From NCBI RefSeq assembly GCF_014836545.1, contig NZ_JACSQS010000001.1, positions 424,928-488,927 of the forward strand: a stretch of 64,000 nt of DNA. Direction: 5' to 3'. This document shows, in pieces, positions 16,229 through 29,017 of this stretch. A program made the position numbers and the translations under genes. The notes under the pieces were generated by a model, which was not told the origin of the DNA, did no database searches, and saw only the letters and a program-made list of their open reading frames with translations. The stretch comes from Stenotrophomonas lacuserhaii (GTDB lineage: Bacteria > Pseudomonadota > Gammaproteobacteria > Xanthomonadales > Xanthomonadaceae). Every line of letters starts with the position of its first letter. Position 1 is the stretch's first letter.

Positions 16229-17035
16229 CTACGCCTTACCGCGGCAATGCGGGAACCGGCCGCATCCTTGGAACTGCTCGCCTGTTCGGCGATTGGTTCT
16301 CAAGACCAGTACGCTACCGCACCTTCTGCAGGCAGCTGCTTGGGGGGTGGGGCAAGGTGCAGGCTCAAGTTGCGGTTCGACACGAATTGCGGCTGGCTTC
16401 TGCACAGCCCGGATCATGCCAAGCAACTCCTCGCCACCGATCAGCTCTATGGGCTTTCCCGCCGCGAACGCTTCGGCATCACGGGTGAATGTGCCGATGC
16501 AAACAATCTTGACCGCATCAGCGCGGTGGTGCGCCAGTAGCCCTGCCATCTCGCGCACCACGCTTACGCCGATCTGCCGTGACCGCCATTGCTTGCATTG
16601 GACGAGAACCTTCTGACCCTGCTTGCGCAGGATCAGATCGATACCTCCATCAGGACCGCCCAATCCAGTTTCTTCCACCGTGTAGCCGTGGCGTCGGAAT
16701 GCTTCACCTACCAATTGCTCGAACTGGGCCCAACTGCCAGAGGCCAGGCTCTCCAGCGAGTCCCGGGTATCGAGCAGGCGTCGGCGGCGACGGGAGCCAA
16801 GGAAGGAGGCGAGGGCAGCCATCCAACACAGTCCCAGAAGCAGCCATGCCAGTGGTGCCAGTATGTTGCCGAGCTGTGCGCCGAGCCCGACTGCAAGCGG
16901 ACCGTTGTGCTTTGTCAGCCACCAAGGGAGGACGTGGTGGATCGCAATGAAGCCGACGACGCCTGCGACGATGCCTGCGGGCCAGGGCAGCTCAGCCAGC
17001 ACCTCGAATCCGTTCTTCTTTCCTCTACGTGCCAT
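16229..17035 (-). CDS. Membrane-anchored restriction-endonuclease-like (Mrr_cat) protein with topoisomerase-type zinc finger
   Basis: 268 residues. Two membrane helices (about 20-38 and 55-80) come first, then a basic patch (SRRRRR), then an Mrr-type PD-(D/E)XK fold. GPDGGIDLIL gives Asp133, and VQCKQW gives Gln146-x-Lys148 with the usual Glu replaced by Gln, as in many Mrr-cat proteins. The C-terminal CRRCG...GCGRFPHC block (Cys236, Cys239, Cys258, Cys264) is a topoisomerase-I-like C4 zinc finger. Proteins of this design are widespread in proteobacteria with unclear function. The active site looks intact. Confidence 0.82.
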   Translation of the reverse strand: MARRGKKNGFEVLAELPWPAGIVAGVVGFIAIHHVLPWWLTKHNGPLAVGLGAQLGNILAPLAWLLLGLCWMAALASFLGSRRRRRLLDTRDSLESLASGSWAQFEQLVGEAFRRHGYTVEETGLGGPDGGIDLILRKQGQKVLVQCKQWRSRQIGVSVVREMAGLLAHHRADAVKIVCIGTFTRDAEAFAAGKPIELIGGEELLGMIRAVQKPAAIRVEPQLEPAPCPTPQAAACRRCGSVLVLRTNRRTGEQFQGCGRFPHCRGKA

Positions 17036-18203: not shown

Positions 18204-18311
18204 GCCCCGCACCATCACGGCTTCTTCTTACTTCCAGGACTTGGCGGCTTGTCGTTGGTCCTATTGGTCCTATTTGATGTCCTTCGATGAGCGCCAAGCA
18301 AGCCGGCACTC

Positions 18312-19247
18312 CTATTTCGTGGCCTTGGATGAGCTCTTCTTAGCCCGCTTTTGGGTGCTTGTCTTCCGTAGATCAGGAGTCACCTGGCTTCGCCTAAGCG
18401 CAGCCTCTAGATCCGCTGGTAAGTTCTGGAGCTTGGCCAGCTGATCTTCTAGAGCTTCACATCTGCCACGCTGCTTGTCCGCCATCTGTATTGCCGCCGC
18501 GGTGGCTGAGCGCGCCTTTTCAAGGCTGTGCCGCATCTCTGTTTCAATCGACGCATTCCTTTTTACTGCGCTGGCAAGCTTCGTCTGCAATGTCTTGGCC
18601 TCTTGTCTAGCGCGATCGAGATCACCCAGCGCTCGATTTTCGACAGATCTGACGTGCTCAGCCAGGGTCTCGCGCTCGGATCTCGCCGATTCCTCAGTCT
18701 CTTGCAGCCTGTCGTAGAGAACCTGCCGTGAGATCTCCACTTGCTCAAGTCGCTGAATAGCGGAAGTTCGCTGCCCAGCGAGTTCCGCAGCCTGCAGCTG
18801 AAGCTGATCGACCAAGCGCTGCAATTCCGTGGCCTGGGCGCAGGCTAGGCGTTCGGCAACAAGGGCCGCCTCCGACTTCGCATGGACAGCGCTCATCTCA
18901 CCTGCGAGTGCTTGGGCCCGGACAAGAAGTTCCTCTTGTTTGACTGTAAGCTCCTGGCGCACCTCGGAGAACTCAGCAAGGACGGCATCACGCGCATGTT
19001 CTAGCGCCAACGCCCACCATTGCCCAGCAAGCTTCCCCACCACAGCCGGAGCGTCTTTCACGCTTGGCTTCTCAGGATGCAACCGACTTCCAAGGCTTAG
19101 CCACCAAGTATCAAGCAAGCGGGTAACCGTGTTGGGGGAGCCCGTACCCAGATGGGCCCGAACGCGCTCCACTGTCGGGCGCTCACCCTTTGCGACTAGC
19201 GCGTCAGCGGCGCCGTGCACGTCTAGTTCCGTGATGCCGCGAGCCAT
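18312..19247 (-). CDS. KfrA-like DNA-binding coiled-coil protein
   Basis: 311 residues. The N-terminal region (about 1-110, GITELDVHGAADALVAKGERPTVERVRAHLG) is a KfrA-type helix-turn-helix domain. It is followed by a long alpha-helical coiled coil (about 110-285) and a basic tail (KKSSSKATK). On plasmids KfrA binds DNA and supports partitioning; chromosomal relatives often lie beside integrases. Here it is divergent from a tyrosine integrase, separated by 104 bases that contain a GATAA-N7-TTATC dyad, so it may autoregulate and control the integrase. GGAG sits eight bases before the ATG. Confidence 0.82.
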   Translation of the reverse strand: MARGITELDVHGAADALVAKGERPTVERVRAHLGTGSPNTVTRLLDTWWLSLGSRLHPEKPSVKDAPAVVGKLAGQWWALALEHARDAVLAEFSEVRQELTVKQEELLVRAQALAGEMSAVHAKSEAALVAERLACAQATELQRLVDQLQLQAAELAGQRTSAIQRLEQVEISRQVLYDRLQETEESARSERETLAEHVRSVENRALGDLDRARQEAKTLQTKLASAVKRNASIETEMRHSLEKARSATAAAIQMADKQRGRCEALEDQLAKLQNLPADLEAALRRSQVTPDLRKTSTQKRAKKSSSKATK

Positions 19248-19295
19248 TGAATAGTCTCCTGTGCGGGCGCCCTGCCCCGTTGATTCCGTACTAGT

Positions 19296-19312
19296 GATAA
19301 GTGCTGATTATC
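19296..19312. promoter_or_regulatory. Candidate KfrA operator dyad
   Basis: An inverted repeat GATAA-N7-TTATC lies between the divergent kfrA-like and integrase genes. KfrA proteins bind dyads near their own start, so this is a plausible autoregulatory site. The arms are only five bases, so the call is weak. Confidence 0.3.
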
Positions 19313-19332
19313 GCGGGTACGGTGTTCTCTGC

Positions 19333-19360
19333 ATAGCGAACATTACATATTATGAAAGAT
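19333..19360 (+). other. Weak dif-like sequence overlapping the integrase start
   Basis: ATATTATGAAAGAT at 19347-19360 resembles the centre and XerD arm of dif, and the XerC side is poorly conserved (about 16 of 28 positions overall by eye). If real, the kfrA-like gene would lie between two Xer-type sites. It may equally be an AT-rich promoter region. Confidence 0.22.
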
Positions 19361-20447
19361 ATTTCTACAATTCCCGTGTCCGCCGCGACGGCCTCCTCTC
19401 TGGCACTGCCCGAACAGCTGGCCCAACAGGCTGCCGATGCGGTCCGCGAGCTGCTGGCCGAAGCTGCGGCCGAGAACACCACCCGCAGCTACACCAGCGC
19501 CCTGCGGTACTGGGCGGGCTGGCATGCAGCGCGCTACGGCATCGAGCTGGCTTTACCGGTACCCGAAGCCACCGTGCTGCAGTTCGTGGTCGATCACGTA
19601 CAGCGCCGCTCAACCGACGGCGAATTGGCATGGGAACTGCCACCAGCCGTCGACCAAGCCTTGGTGACCGCCGGCCTTAAGGCCAAACTTGGTCCTTGGT
19701 CCTTGGACCTTGGCCACAGTGCGCCATCGCGTTGCCGTGCTGTCCACGGCGCACCGACTCAAGCAAGTGACCAATCCCTGCGAGCAGCCGGCAATCCGCA
19801 CCGTGCTCAGTCGCGCGGCGCGGGCCGCGGTCAAGCGCGGCGAGCGCCCACGCAAGAAGACTGCGATCACCCTGACCGAGCTGGAGGCCATATTGGCCAC
19901 CTGCGACGATAGCCTGGAAGGAATTCGGGATCGCGCCCTACTCTGCTTCGGGTTCGCTAGTGGCGGCCGCCGGCGTAGCGAGATCGCCGCGGCCGACCTG
20001 CGCGACCTGCGCCGGATTGGCGAGGCGGGCTATATCTACCGGTTGGAGCACAGCAAGACCCAGCAGGCCGGGGTTACGGTCACCTCGACCCCAGATAAGC
20101 CGGTGCTCGATCGGGCCGCCCTCGCCCTCCAGGACTGGTTGGAGGCCTCAGGCCTCACCGAGGGGGCGATCTTCCGGCGGCTGTGGAAGCAACGCATCGG
20201 CCCCGCTCTCTCCCCGGCCGCCGTAGGCGAAATTGTGCAGCGACGGGCGCGCCTGGCCGGGTTGGAGGGGGATTTTGGTGGGCATAGTCTCAGGTCAGGC
20301 TTCGTGACTGAGGCAAGCCGCCAAGGGGTGGCACTGCCGGCGATCATGCAGTTGACCGAGCACCGGTCAGTGTCGAGTGTGGTGGGGTATTTCCAGGCCG
20401 GAGGAGCGACATCGAATCCCGCTGCACGTTTATTAGAAGATCAATAG
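19352..20447 (+). pseudogene. Tyrosine recombinase/integrase interrupted by a 7-bp tandem duplication
   Basis: Bases 19352 to about 19700 encode a SAM-like N-terminal domain (AAAENTTRSYTSALRYWAGW). From 19689 to 20447 the catalytic domain continues one frame over: Arg in SGGRRRSEIAAADL, HSKTQQ, HSLRSGF with His-x-x-Arg, and LTEHRS...GYFQAG with the Tyr nucleophile. The break falls exactly on two adjacent copies of GGTCCTT (19691-19697 and 19698-19704). Deleting one copy restores a continuous KLGPWTLATVRHRV, the expected wild-type joint. The enzyme would then be about 360 residues. So one slippage event inactivated it, or the tract is reversible or an assembly error. No ribosome-binding site is obvious at 19352. 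Confidence 0.85.
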
Positions 20448-20582
20448 AAATTGCGCAAAGACTAGGCTTGTACGTCCGCCATTCCAACTGATTGATCTTC
20501 TGAAAAAACTGCAGACAAGCGTTAGACGGCGCTCGGGACCTTGGCAACTCTGACGCACCCAGATGCGAATCTGTCGGCATGA

Positions 20583-22841
20583 CTAGGCCCGCGCAGCCGT
20601 ATCGCCGGTTTCAGCTACCTCGCCGCCACCGACGAACACATTGACTTCGTTTTCAGCAACGATCGCCATGATCGCAGGCAGCCCATCTTCCCGAAGTCGA
20701 GACTCAAGTTTGGCAAGCAGCTCCTTGTCCAAGGCACTTGGAATCGCTCGGACACCTGGGGGATGGGAATGCCATTCGCCGATGTAGCCCACCATGCCCC
20801 TGGTCAGCGATGAAGCGTGTTCAACCAGTTCTGGCACCCCTGCCCTACCCCGAATGAAGCTGTCGGGGTGAGCCACGCTATCTAAGGGCGCCTCTCGCGC
20901 ATCGACGATCGTTACCGTTCGCACCTTGTGGTCAAAGATGCCAAGCAACACACCACCCGTTTCCACCGGCAAGCATGCCGACCTCATCGCGAGCATCTGG
21001 TCCTCAAGCCCTTCGTCCCACCTCACCTTCCAAGAATATCCTTCCAAGCTTCGAACCGGCCTGACTGCAATCGATGCGACACTCACCGCACCCGAGTTTT
21101 CATCATGGGTTCGAATTTCAATACGAGCATTTGGCTCCAAGACACCCTGCCTTAGGGCTCGGGAGAGTTGGGCGGCGTGGAGCTGAACTAGCTCATGTGA
21201 CAAGACGAAGCTGTGATCACGACAACCGGCCCCGACACGGATCTGTGCTGCGGTGTGCAAATGCTTCTGCCCCCAAGGCTCGTGCAACAGAGCTCGATAA
21301 TATTGCGCTTCTAACGCCGAGAGACGCATGCAGCGATGCTCATCCTCCAACATCAAGACAGATGCAAGCCCCGAATGCGTAAAGAACACGGATGCCGAGC
21401 GAGCGAGATCATGCTCAGACCAATCGCGCGGCACGGAGAGCGTTGTGGACGCGTCGACGAGCAATGCGCTTTCGCGCAGACAGCTTTCCACCTCAGAGGC
21501 ATCAAAGTCACTTGCAGAAGCGTAAACAGCTTTAGCGAGAATCGGCCTCGCAAACACCGCATCAATCTTCCCGCGAATGACATCCACCTTCTTTAAGCCG
21601 ATGTCGATGGCGTTAGCTTCGTGGCGAACGACATTGTGGGGAGCCACCTGATCTGGATCGATAAGGTTCCACCGCCCCCATTGCGAGCGAGCCCAAAGAT
21701 TTGCGAGCGCGCTACCGAGTGATCCGACACCCGCCAATGTGCCCCGAAAGTCTGCCCTGCTGGCTTCTATGCCTGACATCGCCCGGGCATGCATCATAGG
21801 AGGCGTTTGAAGGACCTCCAAAGGTGCCAGCTTGAAGGCACGTCCCTCCTCACTTAAAGCGGCCACATCACCGCCCAAAAGGTCGATGGCATAGGCCTTC
21901 GCGTTAGGGGCCGCGCGACCCAATACACCGAGCTCGATTCCAACATCTTCCCAAGGCGCGGCAACAGCGTAAGCCCGAGCGTCCCACCGATCTATTTTCC
22001 CATCTCGCAAACGTGGAATTCGCAATAGAAGAAGCAGCTGCAACTTGCATGCTGTTTTTTGATTTGCTACACGAGTAAGGCTTTTCAAGGCCTCGGAAAG
22101 GGCTGGCGACAAATCAGACCCCAAAGCCGTGAGCTGGTCGTCCAGGGCACCCAGCGTGGAGGGGCTTCGCTGAATAGGCTGATGGCCAATGGGCGGCAGA
22201 TCTAAGACAGCAACTTGCCAGCGAGGCGCGCCGTCAGTTGCCTTGGTTCCCGCTAGCCAATAGCGTCTCTCCGCGCTTTCATCGGCAAGATTGAGATAAA
22301 GCCGCTCTTTCTTTTCGCCGTCCCAATCAGAGGGGAGAACCACTACGTCGCCGGAGCTATAGAAAAGCTGTTCTAATGCCTGGTCCTGAGCATGGATCGT
22401 TCCGTCGGCCGTAGAAGCAAGCCACCACAGCACTTTTCGGAGGTGCCGCTCTGCGGTCCACTGCCGCTCCTCGAAGCCCCAGCTCTCATAGAGACAAAGT
22501 GACGCGGGCTCTCCGTCTGGGACGCCGTTGAGATGGATGACGTCCGGAAAATCCGTGCGCAACGCCCTCACTTCGGCAGGCACCATCGAGCCGGGACAGA
22601 AGCTTAGACAGAGTCGCTCCCGAGGCCAAATTCCAGGCGAGTTCTGAGGAGCAACCGTGCCGTCGCCAACGTCTGCGACCACGCCAACATGCGGCACTGG
22701 GGCCTGGATCAGGCGCAACCCCACGACATCAAAGTGAGGGTGCGCCTCACAGGCGCGCAAGAGTGCGGCCAGTGCCGAACTCGCCAACTCTTCCGGGATG
22801 GCATTGATTGGCTCACCCCAGTTGATGTAGTTCGCCATCAT
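20583..22841 (-). CDS. Three-domain E2-E1-JAB protein of a ubiquitin-like conjugation system
   Basis: 752 residues. Domain one (1 to about 170) is an E2-like fold: HLNG and SLCLYESWGF place the predicted catalytic Cys at 116, followed by WTAERHLRKVLWWL typical of this family. Domain two (about 355-600) is a ThiF/E1 adenylating fold with GVGSLGS (371-377) and LIDPDQVAPHNVVRH. Cys540 in GAGCRDHS is a candidate E1 cysteine. Domain three (about 610-745) is a JAB/JAMM isopeptidase: Glu627, His691-Ser-His693, Ser702 and Asp705 form the metal site. One chain could therefore activate, transfer and remove a modifier. Its ATG overlaps the stop of the MBL gene (TGATG), so the two are coupled. CBASS Cap2 and Cap3 are separate relatives. 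No ubiquitin-like gene or CD-NTase is nearby. Confidence 0.87.
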   Translation of the reverse strand: MMANYINWGEPINAIPEELASSALAALLRACEAHPHFDVVGLRLIQAPVPHVGVVADVGDGTVAPQNSPGIWPRERLCLSFCPGSMVPAEVRALRTDFPDVIHLNGVPDGEPASLCLYESWGFEERQWTAERHLRKVLWWLASTADGTIHAQDQALEQLFYSSGDVVVLPSDWDGEKKERLYLNLADESAERRYWLAGTKATDGAPRWQVAVLDLPPIGHQPIQRSPSTLGALDDQLTALGSDLSPALSEALKSLTRVANQKTACKLQLLLLLRIPRLRDGKIDRWDARAYAVAAPWEDVGIELGVLGRAAPNAKAYAIDLLGGDVAALSEEGRAFKLAPLEVLQTPPMMHARAMSGIEASRADFRGTLAGVGSLGSALANLWARSQWGRWNLIDPDQVAPHNVVRHEANAIDIGLKKVDVIRGKIDAVFARPILAKAVYASASDFDASEVESCLRESALLVDASTTLSVPRDWSEHDLARSASVFFTHSGLASVLMLEDEHRCMRLSALEAQYYRALLHEPWGQKHLHTAAQIRVGAGCRDHSFVLSHELVQLHAAQLSRALRQGVLEPNARIEIRTHDENSGAVSVASIAVRPVRSLEGYSWKVRWDEGLEDQMLAMRSACLPVETGGVLLGIFDHKVRTVTIVDAREAPLDSVAHPDSFIRGRAGVPELVEHASSLTRGMVGYIGEWHSHPPGVRAIPSALDKELLAKLESRLREDGLPAIMAIVAENEVNVFVGGGEVAETGDTAARA

Positions 22842-24019
22842 CAGCCCGCACGCGGGGCAGCAGCCGCTGCAAGGCCTGCCGCGCCCGAACGCTGGGCTGC
22901 TCTGACCTTCGCCCCTCCGGCCGTGATCTCAATTTCAATCGGCTCCGGAGCCCACGTTTGCGGAGTCTCGCCGGTGCAAAGAAAGGTGCCAGCCTTACTT
23001 GCCAAAATCGCCTTGTATTCTCGCTTTGCGCGGGTGCACGGCGGATCGCTCTCATCGTCCTTGATGGGCTTGGAGCTTGAAATAATCTTAGCGCCAAAGC
23101 GCGCCTGGGACAGCGCATTTCGCGCGGAAGCGCTGACCACAGCCTCCTCTCCACATCCTGACCAGCTGTCACGCGAAAAGACATGCCACGAGCAGTGGTG
23201 AGGTGTTTCAAGGACGTCGTATTCGAGCACCTCGGGCGCGTCCTTATAGCGCTCCCACAGCCGCTCCCAGATCGCGACTTCTGCATCACCAGCGGTGAGA
23301 AAGCGACAACTGCTCTGGTTCAGCCCGCCTACGGAAGACGCCAGTTCCATGTTGAGGATCACACTGGAATGGTTCTTGGCGCGCAGGTCCACCTCCTCAT
23401 CATCGTCGCAAACGAGCGACGGGGCCAGAAGCTGAGCACGGAAGTGGGCGTTCTCCATGCCATTGATGCGGCTAAAGTGGTCGCCGGAACGGACCAAGAT
23501 CGCTTCAAGACCTTCGGTTTTTCCGCCTTTATCTTCGCCCATCAGCAGGATGCGGTCGCCCTCCAGGACAGCACCATCTCGGAAACTCTGAACGCGACGC
23601 TTTGCCTCGGTTCGGAAGGCCTTTGCGTCGTCGCAGAAGGTCATGATCTTCGAGGCACGACGGAAAACAATCGGTGAGGACCACATCTCACGGATGACGA
23701 TCCTTTTCTCAGACTGCGGCTTCTCGTCGTCGGCGTAGCCGCTCAGAGGCCCCAGATGAAAGTGCTTTTGCAGCCCTGTGCAATGGTCCTTATCCGGGTG
23801 GCTCAGCAAAAAGACGTCCACATAGGGTCGCCCATTCGCGTCAATGGGAAGGCGAGCTCTGAGGTCAGCGGCGACGTCTCGGGCCTCATCATTGTTCGGG
23901 TCGTCGGCACATTGCCGAATGTTGATGTCCACCAAGATGGTGCTATTGGCGAAATCGACCAAGCGCACCAGTGCCATGTCTCCATTGGCTACTGGGAAGA
24001 AGGTAATCGAAGCACTCAT
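22841..24019 (-). CDS. ComEC-type metallo-beta-lactamase-fold hydrolase, partner of the E2-E1-JAB protein
   Basis: 392 residues, no signal peptide or membrane helix. MBL motifs are SHPDKDHCTG (His74-x-Asp76-x-Asp78-His79, the variant seen in ComEC-like domains rather than strict HxHxDH), NHSSVIL (216-222), LTAGDAE with metal ligand Asp245, and ETPHHCSWH (His274, His275). ComEC-type domains are nucleases or phosphodiesterases, so a nucleic acid or nucleotide substrate is likely. The protein ends in a flexible Ala/Gly-rich tail whose last residues are PRAG, that is, a C-terminal glycine right before an E1/E2 gene. A strong TTGACA/TATAGT promoter precedes it. Function is inferred. Confidence 0.82.
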   Translation of the reverse strand: MSASITFFPVANGDMALVRLVDFANSTILVDINIRQCADDPNNDEARDVAADLRARLPIDANGRPYVDVFLLSHPDKDHCTGLQKHFHLGPLSGYADDEKPQSEKRIVIREMWSSPIVFRRASKIMTFCDDAKAFRTEAKRRVQSFRDGAVLEGDRILLMGEDKGGKTEGLEAILVRSGDHFSRINGMENAHFRAQLLAPSLVCDDDEEVDLRAKNHSSVILNMELASSVGGLNQSSCRFLTAGDAEVAIWERLWERYKDAPEVLEYDVLETPHHCSWHVFSRDSWSGCGEEAVVSASARNALSQARFGAKIISSSKPIKDDESDPPCTRAKREYKAILASKAGTFLCTGETPQTWAPEPIEIEITAGGAKVRAAQRSGAAGLAAAAAPRAG

Positions 24020-24071
24020 TGGGGTTCGCCTATCCTCTGACCACCAGATGTAGTGGCCCTCTTGAGATCGA

Positions 24072-24112
24072 ACTATACTGAGTATTCGCGTTATGTCAAT
24101 GTCGTATACTGA
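24072..24112 (+). promoter_or_regulatory. Candidate WYL (CapW/BrxR-like) operator region and WYL-gene -10 box
   Basis: TATACTGA occurs twice as a direct repeat (24074-24081 and 24105-24112), 31 bases or about three helical turns apart. The first copy is part of a palindrome. The second contains TATACT at 24105-24110, a good -10 for the WYL gene starting at 24139 (AAGGA ribosome site at 24126-24130). A single dimer pair bound here could repress both divergent operons. Confidence 0.45.
24073..24099 (-). promoter_or_regulatory. Promoter of the MBL/E2-E1-JAB operon with operator in the spacer
   Basis: On the minus strand TTGACA (24094-24099) and TATAGT (24073-24078) are separated by 15 bases. 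The palindrome ATAC-TGA-GTAT (24075-24085) overlaps the -10 and spacer, an ideal place for a repressor to block polymerase. The divergent WYL gene is the obvious regulator. Confidence 0.55.
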
Positions 24113-24138
24113 TTGGGACGAATAGAAGGATCCCCCGC

Positions 24139-25038
24139 ATGAAAGAAGCCCAAGTAGCTCCCTCCCGCCGAGGCAGGTGGGGCCAAGACCGTCGATTGGA
24201 GTTCATTGACTCCCGCCTCTACTGGGAAGGTCGACTCAATCGCGCAGATCTAACGGATTTTTTCAGCATCTCGGTCCCCCAGGCCTCTCTGGACTTCGCT
24301 GAATACCAAGCCCGGGCCCCTGGCAACATGGCCTATGACCGGGGGGAGAAGGCCTATCTGGCAGCCGGCGGGTTCGCACCGATCCTCACAGACGGCAGCA
24401 GCACCCGATACCTGGCCGAGCTCTATGCGCTGACGACAGGGGCAATCCCCGCTGATCTCAGCTTCCTGGGAGCTCTGCCTGCGTCGGATGTCGTGCGGCA
24501 CCCTACTCGACTGGTGTCGGCCCCCTTGCTGCGCCAGGTGTTGCGGGCGATCAATACCCAAAATGCTCTTGAGATCACCTATCAGACGATCGCGCGGCCA
24601 GAGCCCGACCGGAGGGTAATCAGCCCGCATGCGCTCGCTTACGATGGGTATCGGTGGCACATTCGCGCGTATTGCCACAATCGCCGAAGCTTTCGGGACT
24701 TTCTCTTTGCCCGGATTTTGGAGTGTGAAGGGCCCAAGACCTGGCTACCGGTCAAGGTTCGGGACGAGGAATGGGAGACGCCTGTCACGATTGCGATCGG
24801 GCCCAATCCAGCGCTTGAGGAAGGTCGGCGCCGCGTGATCGCGCTGGACTACGGGATGACTGATGGGCGGCTGGACATCTCTACGCGCCTGTCGCTGGCC
24901 TTTTACTTGCTTAAACGCCTCGGACTGGACCGCCCCATAGGCGCACTCGCCCCCCACGAACAGCACATCACGTTGCTCAACCGGGCCGAGCTTGAGCCTG
25001 TCCTTCCCCAACTCAACCCACGCAATTCAACCGGCTAA
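24139..25038 (+). CDS. WYL-domain transcriptional regulator of the CapW/BrxR type
   Basis: 299 residues. The N-terminal winged helix (about 10-75, WGQDRRLEFIDSRLYWEG then RLNRADLTDFFSIS) is the pattern of defence-island regulators CapW and BrxR. The WYL domain (about 130-205, ALEITYQ, RRVISPHALAYDGYRWHIRAYC) should bind a ligand, and a WCX-like C-terminal domain follows. Such proteins repress CBASS, BREX and similar systems until a signal, possibly a nucleic acid or nucleotide, releases them. It is divergent from the MBL/E2-E1-JAB pair and four bases upstream of the four-helix membrane protein, so it probably controls both. Confidence 0.85.
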   Translation: MKEAQVAPSRRGRWGQDRRLEFIDSRLYWEGRLNRADLTDFFSISVPQASLDFAEYQARAPGNMAYDRGEKAYLAAGGFAPILTDGSSTRYLAELYALTTGAIPADLSFLGALPASDVVRHPTRLVSAPLLRQVLRAINTQNALEITYQTIARPEPDRRVISPHALAYDGYRWHIRAYCHNRRSFRDFLFARILECEGPKTWLPVKVRDEEWETPVTIAIGPNPALEEGRRRVIALDYGMTDGRLDISTRLSLAFYLLKRLGLDRPIGALAPHEQHITLLNRAELEPVLPQLNPRNSTG

Positions 25039-25042
25039 TCTT

Positions 25043-25693
25043 ATGGCACGCTCGCACAAAGACTCCAATCGCCTAGCGCTGCTGTCGGCTTTGGCGAGCA
25101 ACCTGCTTCTATACTACGCCCTTGCCCGTGGCTTGGATCTGGGAAAGATCAGCACTGGTGCGATGATGGGACACCTCAACCTGCTTCTGCCAGGTGGGCT
25201 GGCCATCGCCTTTACGAGCATAGTCAATGCACAACTGAACTCGCTGCATAAGGCAAGGATCGTCTTCTGGCGGTGGACGCATCCCCTTCCCGGCACGCGG
25301 GTGTTCACGGAGCTTGCCCCAGATGATCCCCGTATTGATCTAGATTCCTTGAACGCCCATTTGGCCCCGTTGCCGGTTGAACCTCGCCAACAGAACTCCC
25401 TCTGGTATCGCCTGTATCAAGAACAGCAAGACACTGCGGCCGTTAGTCACTTGGACCGAAATTGGCTCTTTGCCCGAGACTACTGCTGCGTCATCGCGCT
25501 CCTGGCACCGATCCTAATCGTCGCAGGTCTCTGGCAGCTCCCAAGTCTCAATGTCTACGCATCTCTCGTGGGCTTGTTGGTGTTTCAGTTCTTAGTCGCC
25601 CGGCAGGCGGCTAAGAACTACGCTGAGCGGTTCGTCACCACGGTTGTCGCTCAAGCGCTGGCTAAACTCTCCGCGAAGCCTGCTGGAAATTGA
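25043..25693 (+). CDS. Four-helix membrane protein, candidate effector, unknown family
   Basis: 216 residues from ATG 25043; GTG 24992 inside the WYL gene is less likely. Two membrane helices (about 10-30 and 43-63) come first, then a soluble domain of about 85 residues with conserved-looking Trp and Arg (VFWRWTHPLPGTRVF), then two more helices (147-165 and 171-188) and a short amphipathic tail. The 2+2 arrangement recalls membrane effectors of nucleotide-signalling defence systems, where the helices form pores, but I see no clear match. It starts four bases after the WYL stop and is presumably co-transcribed. Confidence 0.6.
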   Translation: MARSHKDSNRLALLSALASNLLLYYALARGLDLGKISTGAMMGHLNLLLPGGLAIAFTSIVNAQLNSLHKARIVFWRWTHPLPGTRVFTELAPDDPRIDLDSLNAHLAPLPVEPRQQNSLWYRLYQEQQDTAAVSHLDRNWLFARDYCCVIALLAPILIVAGLWQLPSLNVYASLVGLLVFQFLVARQAAKNYAERFVTTVVAQALAKLSAKPAGN

Positions 25694-25874
25694 GGTGCTG
25701 CCGACATGCCAGTGCCACTGTCCGAAGGCTCTAGCGCACCACATCCATATCAATCTCCTGTGGGAGAAGACCAGATGCCAGTGGCGAGCCCAGGAAGGCG
25801 CATCGGAGGGCGGGATACGGTGAAGCAGGCACATGCCATGCGCGGGATCGAGGGCTCGTTGATCTGGTCACAAG

Positions 25875-27470
25875 CTATAGGGAACCTGCCATACCAACAG
25901 GCTTCGACGCAGATTGGCTAGTGGCCATTTCCTTCGATTGCTGGATGACAGGTCTCATGAGAGCGAGGAAATCCTCTTCGAAGTCGCCCACGCCGTCCCC
26001 ATCTGCATTCGGAAATCGATTTTTCAGGTCCGTGAGGAAGTACATTCCACTGATCGTTGGATTGTTCTCAACTCCGAACACCTCGATCATCGGGCGATCC
26101 TTCAACGTCGCGCAGGTGTACATTGCCCCCTCAAAGCTGAGCACGCGATACGGCACCTTATCGATCAGATCTTCAGGAAGTCCCTTTTTGCTGATCTGAT
26201 CCACCACATGACCATGCAGCGTCGTCGTGGTGATGTCGCTGAACAAGATCCAGTCTTCGAGAGTGATGATGATGTTGAAGTACTGGCAATCGTTTTCTTG
26301 CTTAGCCTGCATCTCACGATAGATGTTGGCGTAGTTCTGAACGACAGCCTCGGCGAGCTTTACAATGTCCTTTTCCAAGTCACTGACCTGCTCCGCCACA
26401 CGTCCACTCAACGACAAGCGCTTTGACTTGCACTCTACGAACGCGCAGTTTCCGGGCGACCTGACGATCCAGTCCGTCCCGTCATATCGCTGCTTTCTGA
26501 TCTTTTGGGATTGCGGTTCTTCGACTTCATAGCGCTTCTCCAGGCTTCTAAGCATCCGACCCGTGATGCTCTCGAACGCATCACCGAAGGCGTGGGGAAA
26601 ACCCTTTGCGTTAACTAGGTCGAAATACAGACCTTCAAGCAATCGGCGCTCCAATGCTGGTGGCACTGGACACAAGACGCGATCTGGGTGGCCTGGAAAC
26701 AATGAGATCAACGGATAGAAGTGAAATGCGTTGAAGGTGTACTCCCAGCAATCATTCTGACGCTGCGTCTCAATGAGCTTCTTGCGCATCGGCTCCAAAC
26801 CACCGGTGATGCGTTCGAAGAAGCGTGTCGACTGCGATCTATCCACCCCAAGGATTGCGTAGTCCGTTGTGGTGTTCATATGTACCCGAATGAGTGCTGA
26901 CGCGATCACGCCGAATGTCAGGACGAAATATGTATCGACATCGATCCCAAGATGCTCTTCGAAGATTGCCCGCAGGGCTGGCGTTCTGTACATCGCCAGG
27001 TAGCGACCGATCTTGGCCCGTGTCAGTCGGCTGAACCGCGGAAACTGGTCCTGCGCAATGCGGTGCAGCGTCAGCATAATGTCCGTATTTGGATTGTCCT
27101 CGTGCACATCATTAGCGAACTTATCCAAAGCACTCTTTACGTCTGCAAAGTCCGGCCAATTCGCTAAAGAATGCCCTGTAGGCCTCCCACTTCTGTCCGC
27201 ATGCAAAAGCAGCTCGCGAGCCAGAAGCTCGACTTGGTGAGGAAAGAGATACTTCTCGATATCGTGGGAGTAGCCTCGCTCATCCCGGTGGAGATAGCTG
27301 TCAGGTAGTTTCACTTGGCCAGAGACCAGCCTTGAGTACTGCCATACGTGACGCAGCGAGTCCTCCAACGGCACCTTCCGTAGCGCTGATTTTACCTTTG
27401 CATAGTCTGCTGGCACGTCGCGACTGTCCTTGAGCGAAGCCGCCGAGGATAGCACCAGCACACCCCTCAA
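25875..27470 (-). CDS. Large protein with PD-(D/E)XK nuclease-like domain, unknown family
   Basis: Up to 531 residues. The N-terminal two thirds are helix-rich and unrecognised (YLHRDERGYSHDIEKYLFPHQVELL). From about 295 there is a nuclease-like core: Glu300 in AFESITGRML, Asp333 in GTDWIV, and Glu346-Cys-Lys348 in FVECKSK, the order and spacing of a PD-(D/E)XK fold. No helicase, methylase or DNA-recognition partner is beside it. The start is unclear: only TTG or GTG codons are available (27470, 27461, 27455, 27416) after an upstream stop, so the true N-terminus could be shortened or frameshifted. It is convergent with the four-helix gene and divergent from the peptidase gene. Confidence 0.62.
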   Translation of the reverse strand: MRGVLVLSSAASLKDSRDVPADYAKVKSALRKVPLEDSLRHVWQYSRLVSGQVKLPDSYLHRDERGYSHDIEKYLFPHQVELLARELLLHADRSGRPTGHSLANWPDFADVKSALDKFANDVHEDNPNTDIMLTLHRIAQDQFPRFSRLTRAKIGRYLAMYRTPALRAIFEEHLGIDVDTYFVLTFGVIASALIRVHMNTTTDYAILGVDRSQSTRFFERITGGLEPMRKKLIETQRQNDCWEYTFNAFHFYPLISLFPGHPDRVLCPVPPALERRLLEGLYFDLVNAKGFPHAFGDAFESITGRMLRSLEKRYEVEEPQSQKIRKQRYDGTDWIVRSPGNCAFVECKSKRLSLSGRVAEQVSDLEKDIVKLAEAVVQNYANIYREMQAKQENDCQYFNIIITLEDWILFSDITTTTLHGHVVDQISKKGLPEDLIDKVPYRVLSFEGAMYTCATLKDRPMIEVFGVENNPTISGMYFLTDLKNRFPNADGDGVGDFEEDFLALMRPVIQQSKEMATSQSASKPVGMAGSL

Positions 27471-27769: not shown

Positions 27770-29017
27770 GTGGCGTTTAAAGTAAAGTGTGGGAAGACGT
27801 CACGGCAACCTCCCCGTTGGGGAGATAGGGCGGCGTCAGACGAAGGAGTTTCGTCGACGGGTCTAGTCGCAAAGGCCTTTCAGACTGGAGTTGGGGAGGG
27901 TGTGGTGTTCGACTTCTTGCAAAAAAGCGCTTCTGACGCGCTGCCACTGGAGTTCGGACCTGTCACTGGGCGGGACCGGATTCAGATCACCGCAACATTG
28001 AAATGCAATGCTCAGGGAGCGCCTATGTTTTCGCAGGCACTGCCTTCCGACGTGCTCGAGAGCGCAGGAACATCATTGAACGGAAATGATGTGTGCCGCC
28101 ATGTTTTTAGAATCATTCAGTCCCTCTTTGACGACCCGGCTCTAAAGCCCTTAACAAAGAAGGCTCAAGTTGTCGGTGTCATGAGCGATGAGTCATGTGT
28201 CAACGGCCTTGCAACACGACTGCATATTGGCGAGGACAAGCACCTAATCAACGTAACTTCAGGAACGATGCTGCGCGGCACCGTTGCGTTGTACCGCCTA
28301 CTCGGCCATCAAGTTCTTCAACAGGCTGGCAGTGAGTTCGTGCAAGAGGCCACATCTAAGTTTCACGCCCATCCATTCCCCATGCCGCGCGGTCTCGATT
28401 TACGCAAGTACGGTCTGGAGTGCGCTGTGTATGGGATGCTAGCGGTCTTCTGCCATGAGCTCGCCCACGTTCTGAGGGGACATACGGCATTCGTAAGTCT
28501 GCGTCTCGGGCTGGACGCGTTGTGTGAAGCAGGAGAATCCAGAGATGGAGGGGCGCTCGACGTCAGGCGTCTAATTGAAGTCGACGCCGATGACTATGCC
28601 GGACAGTTTCTCGCAGACATCCTCTTCCGTAACCAAGTACAGACTAAACAGCTGCTGGAAGACACTGCAGCAACGGCCCGTTTCCTGAAGGTTGCAGCCG
28701 GTGTTCTGGCACTCTACTTGGGCTTCAACAAAGAGGGAGGCGCCTACTACGGCGGCCCTGCGCGGGCGCACTTGGTTCTATCGTCGCTGCTGCATCGCTG
28801 CACCGACGACCCCGAAGCTGCCTCCTGGCTGCGCGACCAGATTAAGGATATTCAAGCCGACATGGTTGGTGCGGGTCTCGTCACGCGGGAGGATGTTGCT
28901 CTTCTTGAAAAAGAAAAAGCGGACCTGGCCAACTTGAGCATCCCGGCCAGAAACGCAGTTGAGCACGAGTGGATCGCCGTTCGGCCATGGACGAATGAAC
29001 TAAAGATCAGGGTGTAG
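27770..29017 (+). CDS. Predicted zinc metallopeptidase (HExxH), Lit-like
   Basis: Up to 415 residues. VFCHELAHVLRGH supplies the HELAH zinc motif (His229, Glu230, His233), and LIEVDADDYAGQ supplies the downstream Glu/Asp ligands about 37 residues later. This spacing resembles the phage-exclusion protease Lit and related soluble peptidases. No membrane helix is clear apart from a short hydrophobic stretch near 308-320. The start is uncertain: GTG 27770 or GTG 27902/27905, which has GGGGAGGG just upstream. The 299 bases between this gene and the divergent nuclease-like gene hold no further gene I trust. A role in defence is inference from the island context. Confidence 0.65.
   Translation: MAFKVKCGKTSRQPPRWGDRAASDEGVSSTGLVAKAFQTGVGEGVVFDFLQKSASDALPLEFGPVTGRDRIQITATLKCNAQGAPMFSQALPSDVLESAGTSLNGNDVCRHVFRIIQSLFDDPALKPLTKKAQVVGVMSDESCVNGLATRLHIGEDKHLINVTSGTMLRGTVALYRLLGHQVLQQAGSEFVQEATSKFHAHPFPMPRGLDLRKYGLECAVYGMLAVFCHELAHVLRGHTAFVSLRLGLDALCEAGESRDGGALDVRRLIEVDADDYAGQFLADILFRNQVQTKQLLEDTAATARFLKVAAGVLALYLGFNKEGGAYYGGPARAHLVLSSLLHRCTDDPEAASWLRDQIKDIQADMVGAGLVTREDVALLEKEKADLANLSIPARNAVEHEWIAVRPWTNELKIRV

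Follow-up and report, generated by a model that had tools for sequence, protein, structure and literature searches.

A probable 6A-MBL anti-phage operon, its CapW-type regulator and a candidate membrane effector on a small mobile defence unit of Stenotrophomonas lacuserhaii, and the proposed conjugation mechanism

What does a ubiquitin-type conjugation module do in a bacterial operon whose only other gene encodes a metallo-beta-lactamase (MBL)-fold protein? This question was raised by a 64,000-nucleotide stretch of Stenotrophomonas lacuserhaii DNA (contig NZ_JACSQS010000001.1, positions 424,928 to 488,927; hereafter the window, in whose own numbering positions are given), in which four genes at 20583-25693 were all confirmed. 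On the minus strand, the gene for a ComEC-like MBL-fold protein of 392 residues (22841-24019) lies upstream of that for a 752-residue protein (20583-22841) that unites E2, E1 and JAB modules in one chain, the stop codon of the former and the start codon of the latter overlapping as TGATG. Divergent from this operon, across a gap of 119 bases, the plus strand carries the gene for a WYL transcription factor of 299 residues (24139-25038) followed by that for a membrane protein, designated memA (25043-25693). The open reading frame (ORF) listed for memA begins with TTG at 24992, and the ATG at 25043, which yields 216 residues as in its two closest matches, is the likelier start. An earlier note, made from the DNA letters alone, had described the translational overlap, the divergent pair and the presence of all three conjugation domains in a single protein; the gene calls and domain matches agreed with it. 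The evidence presented below makes it probable that the locus is a 6A-MBL anti-phage operon which CapW switches and whose effector is a membrane protein, that it resides on a small mobile defence unit, and that it operates through conjugation of the MBL.

The core of the locus was already known: as judged from model matches, it is a member of the 6A-MBL anti-phage system. The E2-E1-JAB protein (6A-MBL_cap2_3) scored 640 bits against NF058523 (cut-off 320) and the adjacent MBL (6A-MBL_enzyme) 421 bits against NF058524 (cut-off 220; both equivalog models of NCBIfam release 20), and the Prok-E2_A, ThiF and Prok-JAB matches each exceeded their Pfam cut-offs. The operon type 6a was described in 2006, according to the accessible part of the survey by Iyer et al. 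(PMC1779556). The earlier remark that tripartite proteins of this kind had been noted in surveys was therefore correct as far as it went, but understated the case, because the operon type is now a named NCBIfam system. By sequence, its catalytic residues are intact. Cys116, the E2 catalytic cysteine (22494-22496, minus strand), the GxGxxG loop, and Glu627, His691, His693, Ser702 and Asp705 of the JAB metallopeptidase domain (residues 603-738; 20628-21035, minus strand) were kept in 24/24 correctly framed sequences, window included, after one mis-framed row (L008) had been left out of the 25-row alignment. In the MBL, His74, Asp76, Asp78 and His79 of the metal-binding motif HPDKDH (residues 74-79; 23783-23800, minus strand), together with Asp245, His274 and His275, were invariant in all 58 aligned sequences, again including that of the window.

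Related loci were gathered from 14 titled contigs through an MBL search, and otherwise from plasmids and from genome searches with the NCBIfam models, which covered 297, 348, 398 and 293 genomes and returned 6, 10, 6 and 7 over the cut-off; these samples overlap, and each includes the genome of the window. They were reduced to 36 non-redundant cores, among which L078 was kept though it scored below the cut-off and its E2-E1-JAB gene is split by an insertion. Left out were loci with a cut or partial MBL (L013, L015), with an MBL sharing 90% identity or more with one retained (L064, L086, L104, L105, L111), on the same contigs as L003, L002 and L004 (L061, L062 and L065), with no 6A MBL recognised (L076, L077) or no MBL recognised (L100, L101), with E2-E1-JAB beyond the stretch compared (L108), or with genes in pieces (L110). 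In L078 (7241-9651), the 6A-like E2-E1-JAB gene is interrupted by two IS66-like ORFs, and a patatin gene stands behind it. In L100 and L101, E2-E1-JAB genes occur in the absence of a recognised MBL gene, and the start of the L100 ORF resembles, by eye, a remnant of an MBL C-terminus.

The AlphaFold2 model of the MBL, for which the ComEC MBL domain was the best fold match, had a mean predicted local distance difference test (pLDDT) score of 89.5; some loops scored low, and residues 379-392, an Ala-rich tail (22844-22885, minus strand) ending in PRAG with Gly392 as the likely conjugation end, fell below 50. Across the family this region is variable and often Ala-rich, with a fixed glycine at or near the end; the window protein and many of its relatives have PRAG there, others xHG or xYG. 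Among the best 120 of 2580 homologues, none of which falls below 55% identity with the window protein, so that they are not independent, 119 ended in RAG, KAG, PAG or PHG plus 0-6 residues: 78 stopped exactly at the glycine and 41 had 1-6 further residues, while the remaining one (P0187) carried PRAG followed by a longer divergent tail. A broader comparison was made with 37 representative MBLs with intact ends (the 36 cores and L108; 90% identity threshold), which reach down to about 28% identity with the window, against a background of 356 mechanically chosen ORFs of at least 250 residues (the longest non-overlapping ones of the same neighbourhoods, some of which may not be genes). Ala, His, Tyr or Phe followed by Gly within the last nine residues was found in 37/37 MBLs versus 37/356 background ORFs, and a stricter form of the motif in 36/37 versus 17/356; a glycine as the very last residue was found in 21/37 versus 23/356. 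Of the strict-motif proteins, 19/36 ended exactly at the motif and 17/36 had 1-6 more residues; for L004 the score refers to THG, the last match, although PRAG stands before it. These extra tails, such as the SPR after PRAG in L097, were short and mutually unlike, and it may be that the JAB domain has to trim such MBLs. The motif was absent from MBLs without an E2-E1-JAB partner, both from weak relatives (0/8 distinct ones examined, which represent the 10 rows, among the 19 weak loci L022-L040, where an ORF was recovered by our own profile) and from second MBLs at loci (0/6 distinct ones examined, those of L069, L070 and L107 lying outside the check).

This pattern recalls type II CBASS (cyclic oligonucleotide-based antiphage signalling system), in which, according to the available part of one report, operons that contain Cap2 and Cap3, unlike other architectures, conserve a C-terminal Gly or Ala of the CD-NTase (cGAS/DncV-like nucleotidyltransferase), which conjugation requires (PMC10097602). 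Based on the conserved glycine end, the low-confidence tail and this precedent, the MBL is the likely substrate of E1 and E2, in place of the CD-NTase. The likeness extends to the E1-E2 and JAB chemistry and, as far as the accessible text of two reports goes, to a partner enzyme that carries a glycine end, effectors that are phospholipases or act in the membrane, and control by CapW (PMC9122588, PMC10097602). In contrast to type II CBASS, the glycine-ended enzyme here is a metal-dependent hydrolase, some MBLs continue for 1-6 residues past the glycine, E2, E1 and JAB form one chain, and the operon has no CD-NTase: Pfam matched no nucleotidyltransferase model in the four genes or in six ORFs around them. 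By analogy, the window system would work like CBASS, but it is not CBASS. The earlier note was thus right that a CD-NTase is missing from the operon and its divergent partners. Its observation that there is no ubiquitin-like gene also held in that none was seen in the operon, but probably missed the point: the conserved glycine required by an E1 stands at the C-terminal end of the MBL itself.

That the four genes form a single cargo is best supported by L064, another genome of the genus. In a blastn comparison, the block at 18310-25724 of the window was shared with positions 4541-11924 of L064 at 97% identity over 7420 bases, with no other match in the 18 kb compared. In bins of 500 bases, the KfrA gene showed 83-86% identity and the rest of the block, rightwards from the integrase, 95-100%, and the encoded proteins were nearly the same (identical residues: E2-E1-JAB 746/752, MBL 390/392, WYL 298/299, memA 211/216). 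The block, which we regard from its sequence as a mobile unit, begins at a gene for a KfrA_N-type DNA-binding protein (18312-19247, minus strand; PF11740, 82 bits against a cut-off of 26), holds a tyrosine integrase (19352-20447, plus strand; PF00589 on 19689-20447) and stops 31 bases past memA. The integrase reading frame is interrupted in the window, where it spans two frames; L064 has an open frame of 362 residues, and intact copies exist in other genomes. The four-gene arrangement is not a product of chance, as it is near-identical in this second genome and recurs elsewhere: the same gene order was found in Arenimonas, Thiothrix and Acinetobacter, and plasmids of E. coli, Klebsiella, Enterobacter and Vibrio have it with another membrane-protein family, memC, in the place of memA.

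The membrane protein was compared across loci. memA has 112 homologues at E 0.001, itself included, and no family match in Pfam, NCBIfam or PADLOC (the last at E 0.01); its fold matches were all weak. The AlphaFold2 model (pLDDT 84) was all-helical, with long helices at residues 5-29, 45-64, 132-165 and 169-211, and thus fitted the arrangement of two plus two long hydrophobic helices, here around a small helical part, that had been proposed for this probable membrane effector. Within 5.5 kb of the 36 cores, memA was found at 11, memB at 13, memC at 4 and patatin at 6 (confirmed by Pfam in L063, L073 and L075 and by our own profile in L078, L102 and L103), such that at least one of the four accompanied 32/36 cores. 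Two of the others have a PDC-M48A membrane protein (L067) or an unclassified membrane protein (L072), and the last two are L014 and L066. The partner lies directly downstream or overlaps in L008, L009, L010, L063 and L073, and L103 (8469-12005) encodes a fusion protein of 1178 residues in which E2-E1-JAB continues at its C-terminus into a patatin. The reverse search is the better test of the MBL-membrane pairing than such neighbourhood counts. In 303 genomes, the window's own included, memA had four strong matches, all beside an MBL and 3/4 beside a 6A core, and two weak matches elsewhere; in 289 genomes, memB had four matches, three beside a 6A core and the fourth beside an MBL that, by eye, stands alone. 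These results suggested that interchangeable membrane-acting partners belong to the 6A-MBL system, and that MBL-membrane pairing is a common theme on which E2-E1-JAB looks like a control layer. In L144 (8645-10586), memB and a stand-alone MBL (by eye) lie near genes labelled by eye as transposase-like and KilA-N-like, possibly a minimal MBL-membrane pair without E1/E2. Near two 6A cores with memB, Tle1-like phospholipase genes with hydrophobic helices were observed (L002:7500-8990, by PF09994; L106:9763-11307, by the annotation DUF2235).

The transcription factor is, by sequence, CapW. It matched the solved S. maltophilia CapW (7tb6) with an E value of 4.4e-72 over residues 9-286 of 299, nearly its full length, as well as BrxR (7t8k; E 3.2e-44), in keeping with the CapW-like regulator of the earlier note. 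Its gene is divergent from its operon as CapW is in CBASS, according to the part of the source available (PMC9122588); the accessible text of a further report states that Bub operons also carry CapW or CapH+CapP and that CapW repression in other operons is released by single-stranded DNA (PMC13373217). In L106 (Methylocystis), a helix-turn-helix and ImmA/IrrE pair that recalls CapH+CapP occupies the CapW position. Upstream of the MBL and E2-E1-JAB genes, a putative sigma-70-like promoter, TTGACA-16-TATAGT (24072-24099, minus strand; 11/12 matches), was found, which is weak taken alone, as one was found in the scanned region versus 0.6 expected in shuffles. The palindrome ATACTGAGTAT (24075-24085) overlaps its -10 box, a position that makes it a candidate CapW operator; inspection of other intergenic regions showed no conservation of it.

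From these features we infer the following course of events. CapW would repress the divergent promoter as long as neither infection nor DNA damage has produced its ligand. The E1 module would then adenylate the C-terminal glycine of the ComEC-like MBL and hand the MBL to the E2 cysteine, and together they would join it to target proteins, with the JAB module trimming the short tails of some MBLs and removing the MBL from conjugates. Conjugation would activate or position the MBL for hydrolysis, probably of nucleic acid or nucleotide, and this activity would release the membrane partner memA, so that the membrane is damaged and phage growth stopped. The interpretation in the earlier note is retained in its ubiquitin-type module, its lack of a CD-NTase, its CapW-like regulator and its travelling membrane protein; its order of effectors is recast, with the MBL placed upstream of the membrane protein.

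The main rival to this scheme is that the MBL is its own effector, a ComEC-like nuclease freed on phage or host DNA by conjugation, with memA and the phospholipases as separate defence genes or anchors. The ComEC fold match and the invariant metal site would suit such a role, as would the existence of cores without a recognised membrane partner (L014) and the divergent transcription of memA from the MBL operon in the window, and the MBL may indeed be the effector. Against this stand the membrane-acting partners near 32/36 cores, several directly downstream or overlapping and one fused to the JAB end, and the pairing of memA and memB with stand-alone MBLs as well. We consider the rival unlikely, and think that the membrane protein or phospholipase is the likelier effector and the MBL the regulated enzyme upstream. 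More doubtful still is a reading in which the tail with its conserved glycine serves JAB or E1 for docking or oligomerisation, and E1 and E2 act on another, unlinked protein. Two MBLs without E1/E2 also end in glycine, though not in the motif (L060, L026), and the residues preceding the glycine differ among lineages. Against this reading, 37/37 MBLs keep Ala, His, Tyr or Phe plus Gly within nine residues of the end, even where identity with the window protein has fallen to about 28%. Their extra tails differ from each other and are short, the operon showed no ubiquitin-like gene, and type II CBASS, in the part of the source available, works by conjugation (PMC10097602). That a two-gene 6A operon merely happens to adjoin an unrelated WYL-membrane pair in a defence island is highly improbable. 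The exact memA plus WYL set occurred at only 6/36 loci, and an adjoining GapS1-like gene, below its cut-off, suggests that the region collects defence genes; co-mobility in the block running from the KfrA gene to just past memA speaks strongly against chance, as does the same order in the three other genera and, in its memC version, on the plasmids.

Several observations nonetheless weigh against the proposed scheme. A plain glycine end occurred in 1/8 weak MBL relatives (L026) and 1/6 second MBLs (L060) and arises by chance, as in 23/356 background ORFs, and the residue before it varies (A, H, Y or F). CapW was present at only 14/36 loci and the exact memA plus WYL set at only 6/36; of the components that the earlier note grouped together, it is a membrane-acting partner of some kind that recurs (32/36) and, less often, CapW. 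The earlier note was right to count with the system a membrane protein that travels with it. The figure of 32/36 is a recurrence rather than an independent test, since genes of these very neighbourhoods supplied the profiles for memB, memC and patatin, and matches within 5.5 kb were accepted. L014 had no recognised partner, and none was recognised in L066, which runs into the contig end. memA, memB and memC share no detectable homology, and neither sequence nor fold gives a clue to the function of memA.

Comparison with described systems set these features in context. The two NCBIfam models and the table row of the 2006 survey list no membrane or phospholipase partner; the window adds CapW and memA. 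The pairing of an MBL with a membrane protein resembles the PADLOC candidate system PDC-M48 (M48A membrane protein and M48B MBL): the second MBLs of L004, L007, L060 and L075 matched PDC-M48B and the membrane protein of L067 matched PDC-M48A. PDC-M48 differs in having no E2-E1-JAB, to judge by the names of its two models, and the second MBLs examined were without the glycine motif; neither the MBL nor memA of the window matched the PDC-M48 models at E 0.01, and among PADLOC models the MBL gave only weak LmuA and RTasMBL matches. E1, E2 and JAB modules also occur in Bil and Bub systems, which are suspected of a role in immunity. These differ in having a ubiquitin-like gene, and the E2 of the window belongs to Pfam family A (Prok-E2_A). 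Our literature search found no paper on conjugation of an MBL, the paper behind the 6A-MBL name and two possibly relevant papers being outside its reach, and the glycine end and interchangeable partners appear not to be described in the literature that could be searched. Overall, we lean slightly towards regarding the 6A-MBL system as CBASS-like without a nucleotide cyclase: the hydrolase would serve as both modifier and signalling enzyme, its glycine perhaps exposed by JAB, and would control memA, memB, memC or patatin, the MBL-membrane pair being able to stand alone and E2-E1-JAB having been added as a control layer.

The mobile unit itself appears to belong to a wider class. Its integrase was detected in 25/61 genomes of the genus at E 1e-60, and at seven of eight places fetched (L132-L139) it was accompanied by a match to KfrA, which at one place was partial. 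Judged by these matches, a tyrosine integrase and, in most cases, a KfrA_N gene make up a small mobile carrier in this genus. Proteins of six units were scanned (L133 and L134 lay outside the PADLOC scan), and five of the six matched PADLOC models: type I restriction in L136, Gabija GajA/GajB in L137 (integrase, no KfrA match), OloA-like in L139, weak PDC-M54A and Avs4 in L135, and PDC-S45 in L132; L138 had none. Just outside the unit of the window, 25875-27470 encodes the GapS1-like protein mentioned above (531 residues from the listed TTG start; 55 bits, under the cut-off of 320 of this anti-phage family). Further away, 16229-17035 encodes an Mrr-type nuclease domain (PF04471, 105 bits) preceded by an N-terminal stretch that by eye looks hydrophobic, and also matches a zinc ribbon weakly; 27770-29017, which contains an HELAH motif, weakly resembles M48-type metallopeptidases at a score under the cut-off.

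Related loci occur on plasmids, with MBL matches at E 1e-20 in 226 of 72,556 PLSDB records, including 126 of Klebsiella and 25 of Escherichia. The locus of E. coli SE11 plasmid pSE11-2 (L096), which comprises memC, CapW, MBL and E2-E1-JAB, was matched by 36 of 5426 complete E. coli genomes, in 29 of them over at least 80% of its length; because of these plasmids and genomes, the system can be studied in E. coli K-12. Should the proposed mechanism prove true, bacterial ubiquitin-like conjugation would regulate enzymes beyond nucleotide cyclases, and a conjugated enzyme could itself be the modifier, with a tail past its glycine as in ubiquitin precursors. The 6A-MBL system would gain a third class of component, and how phages are stopped would become testable through simple deletions.

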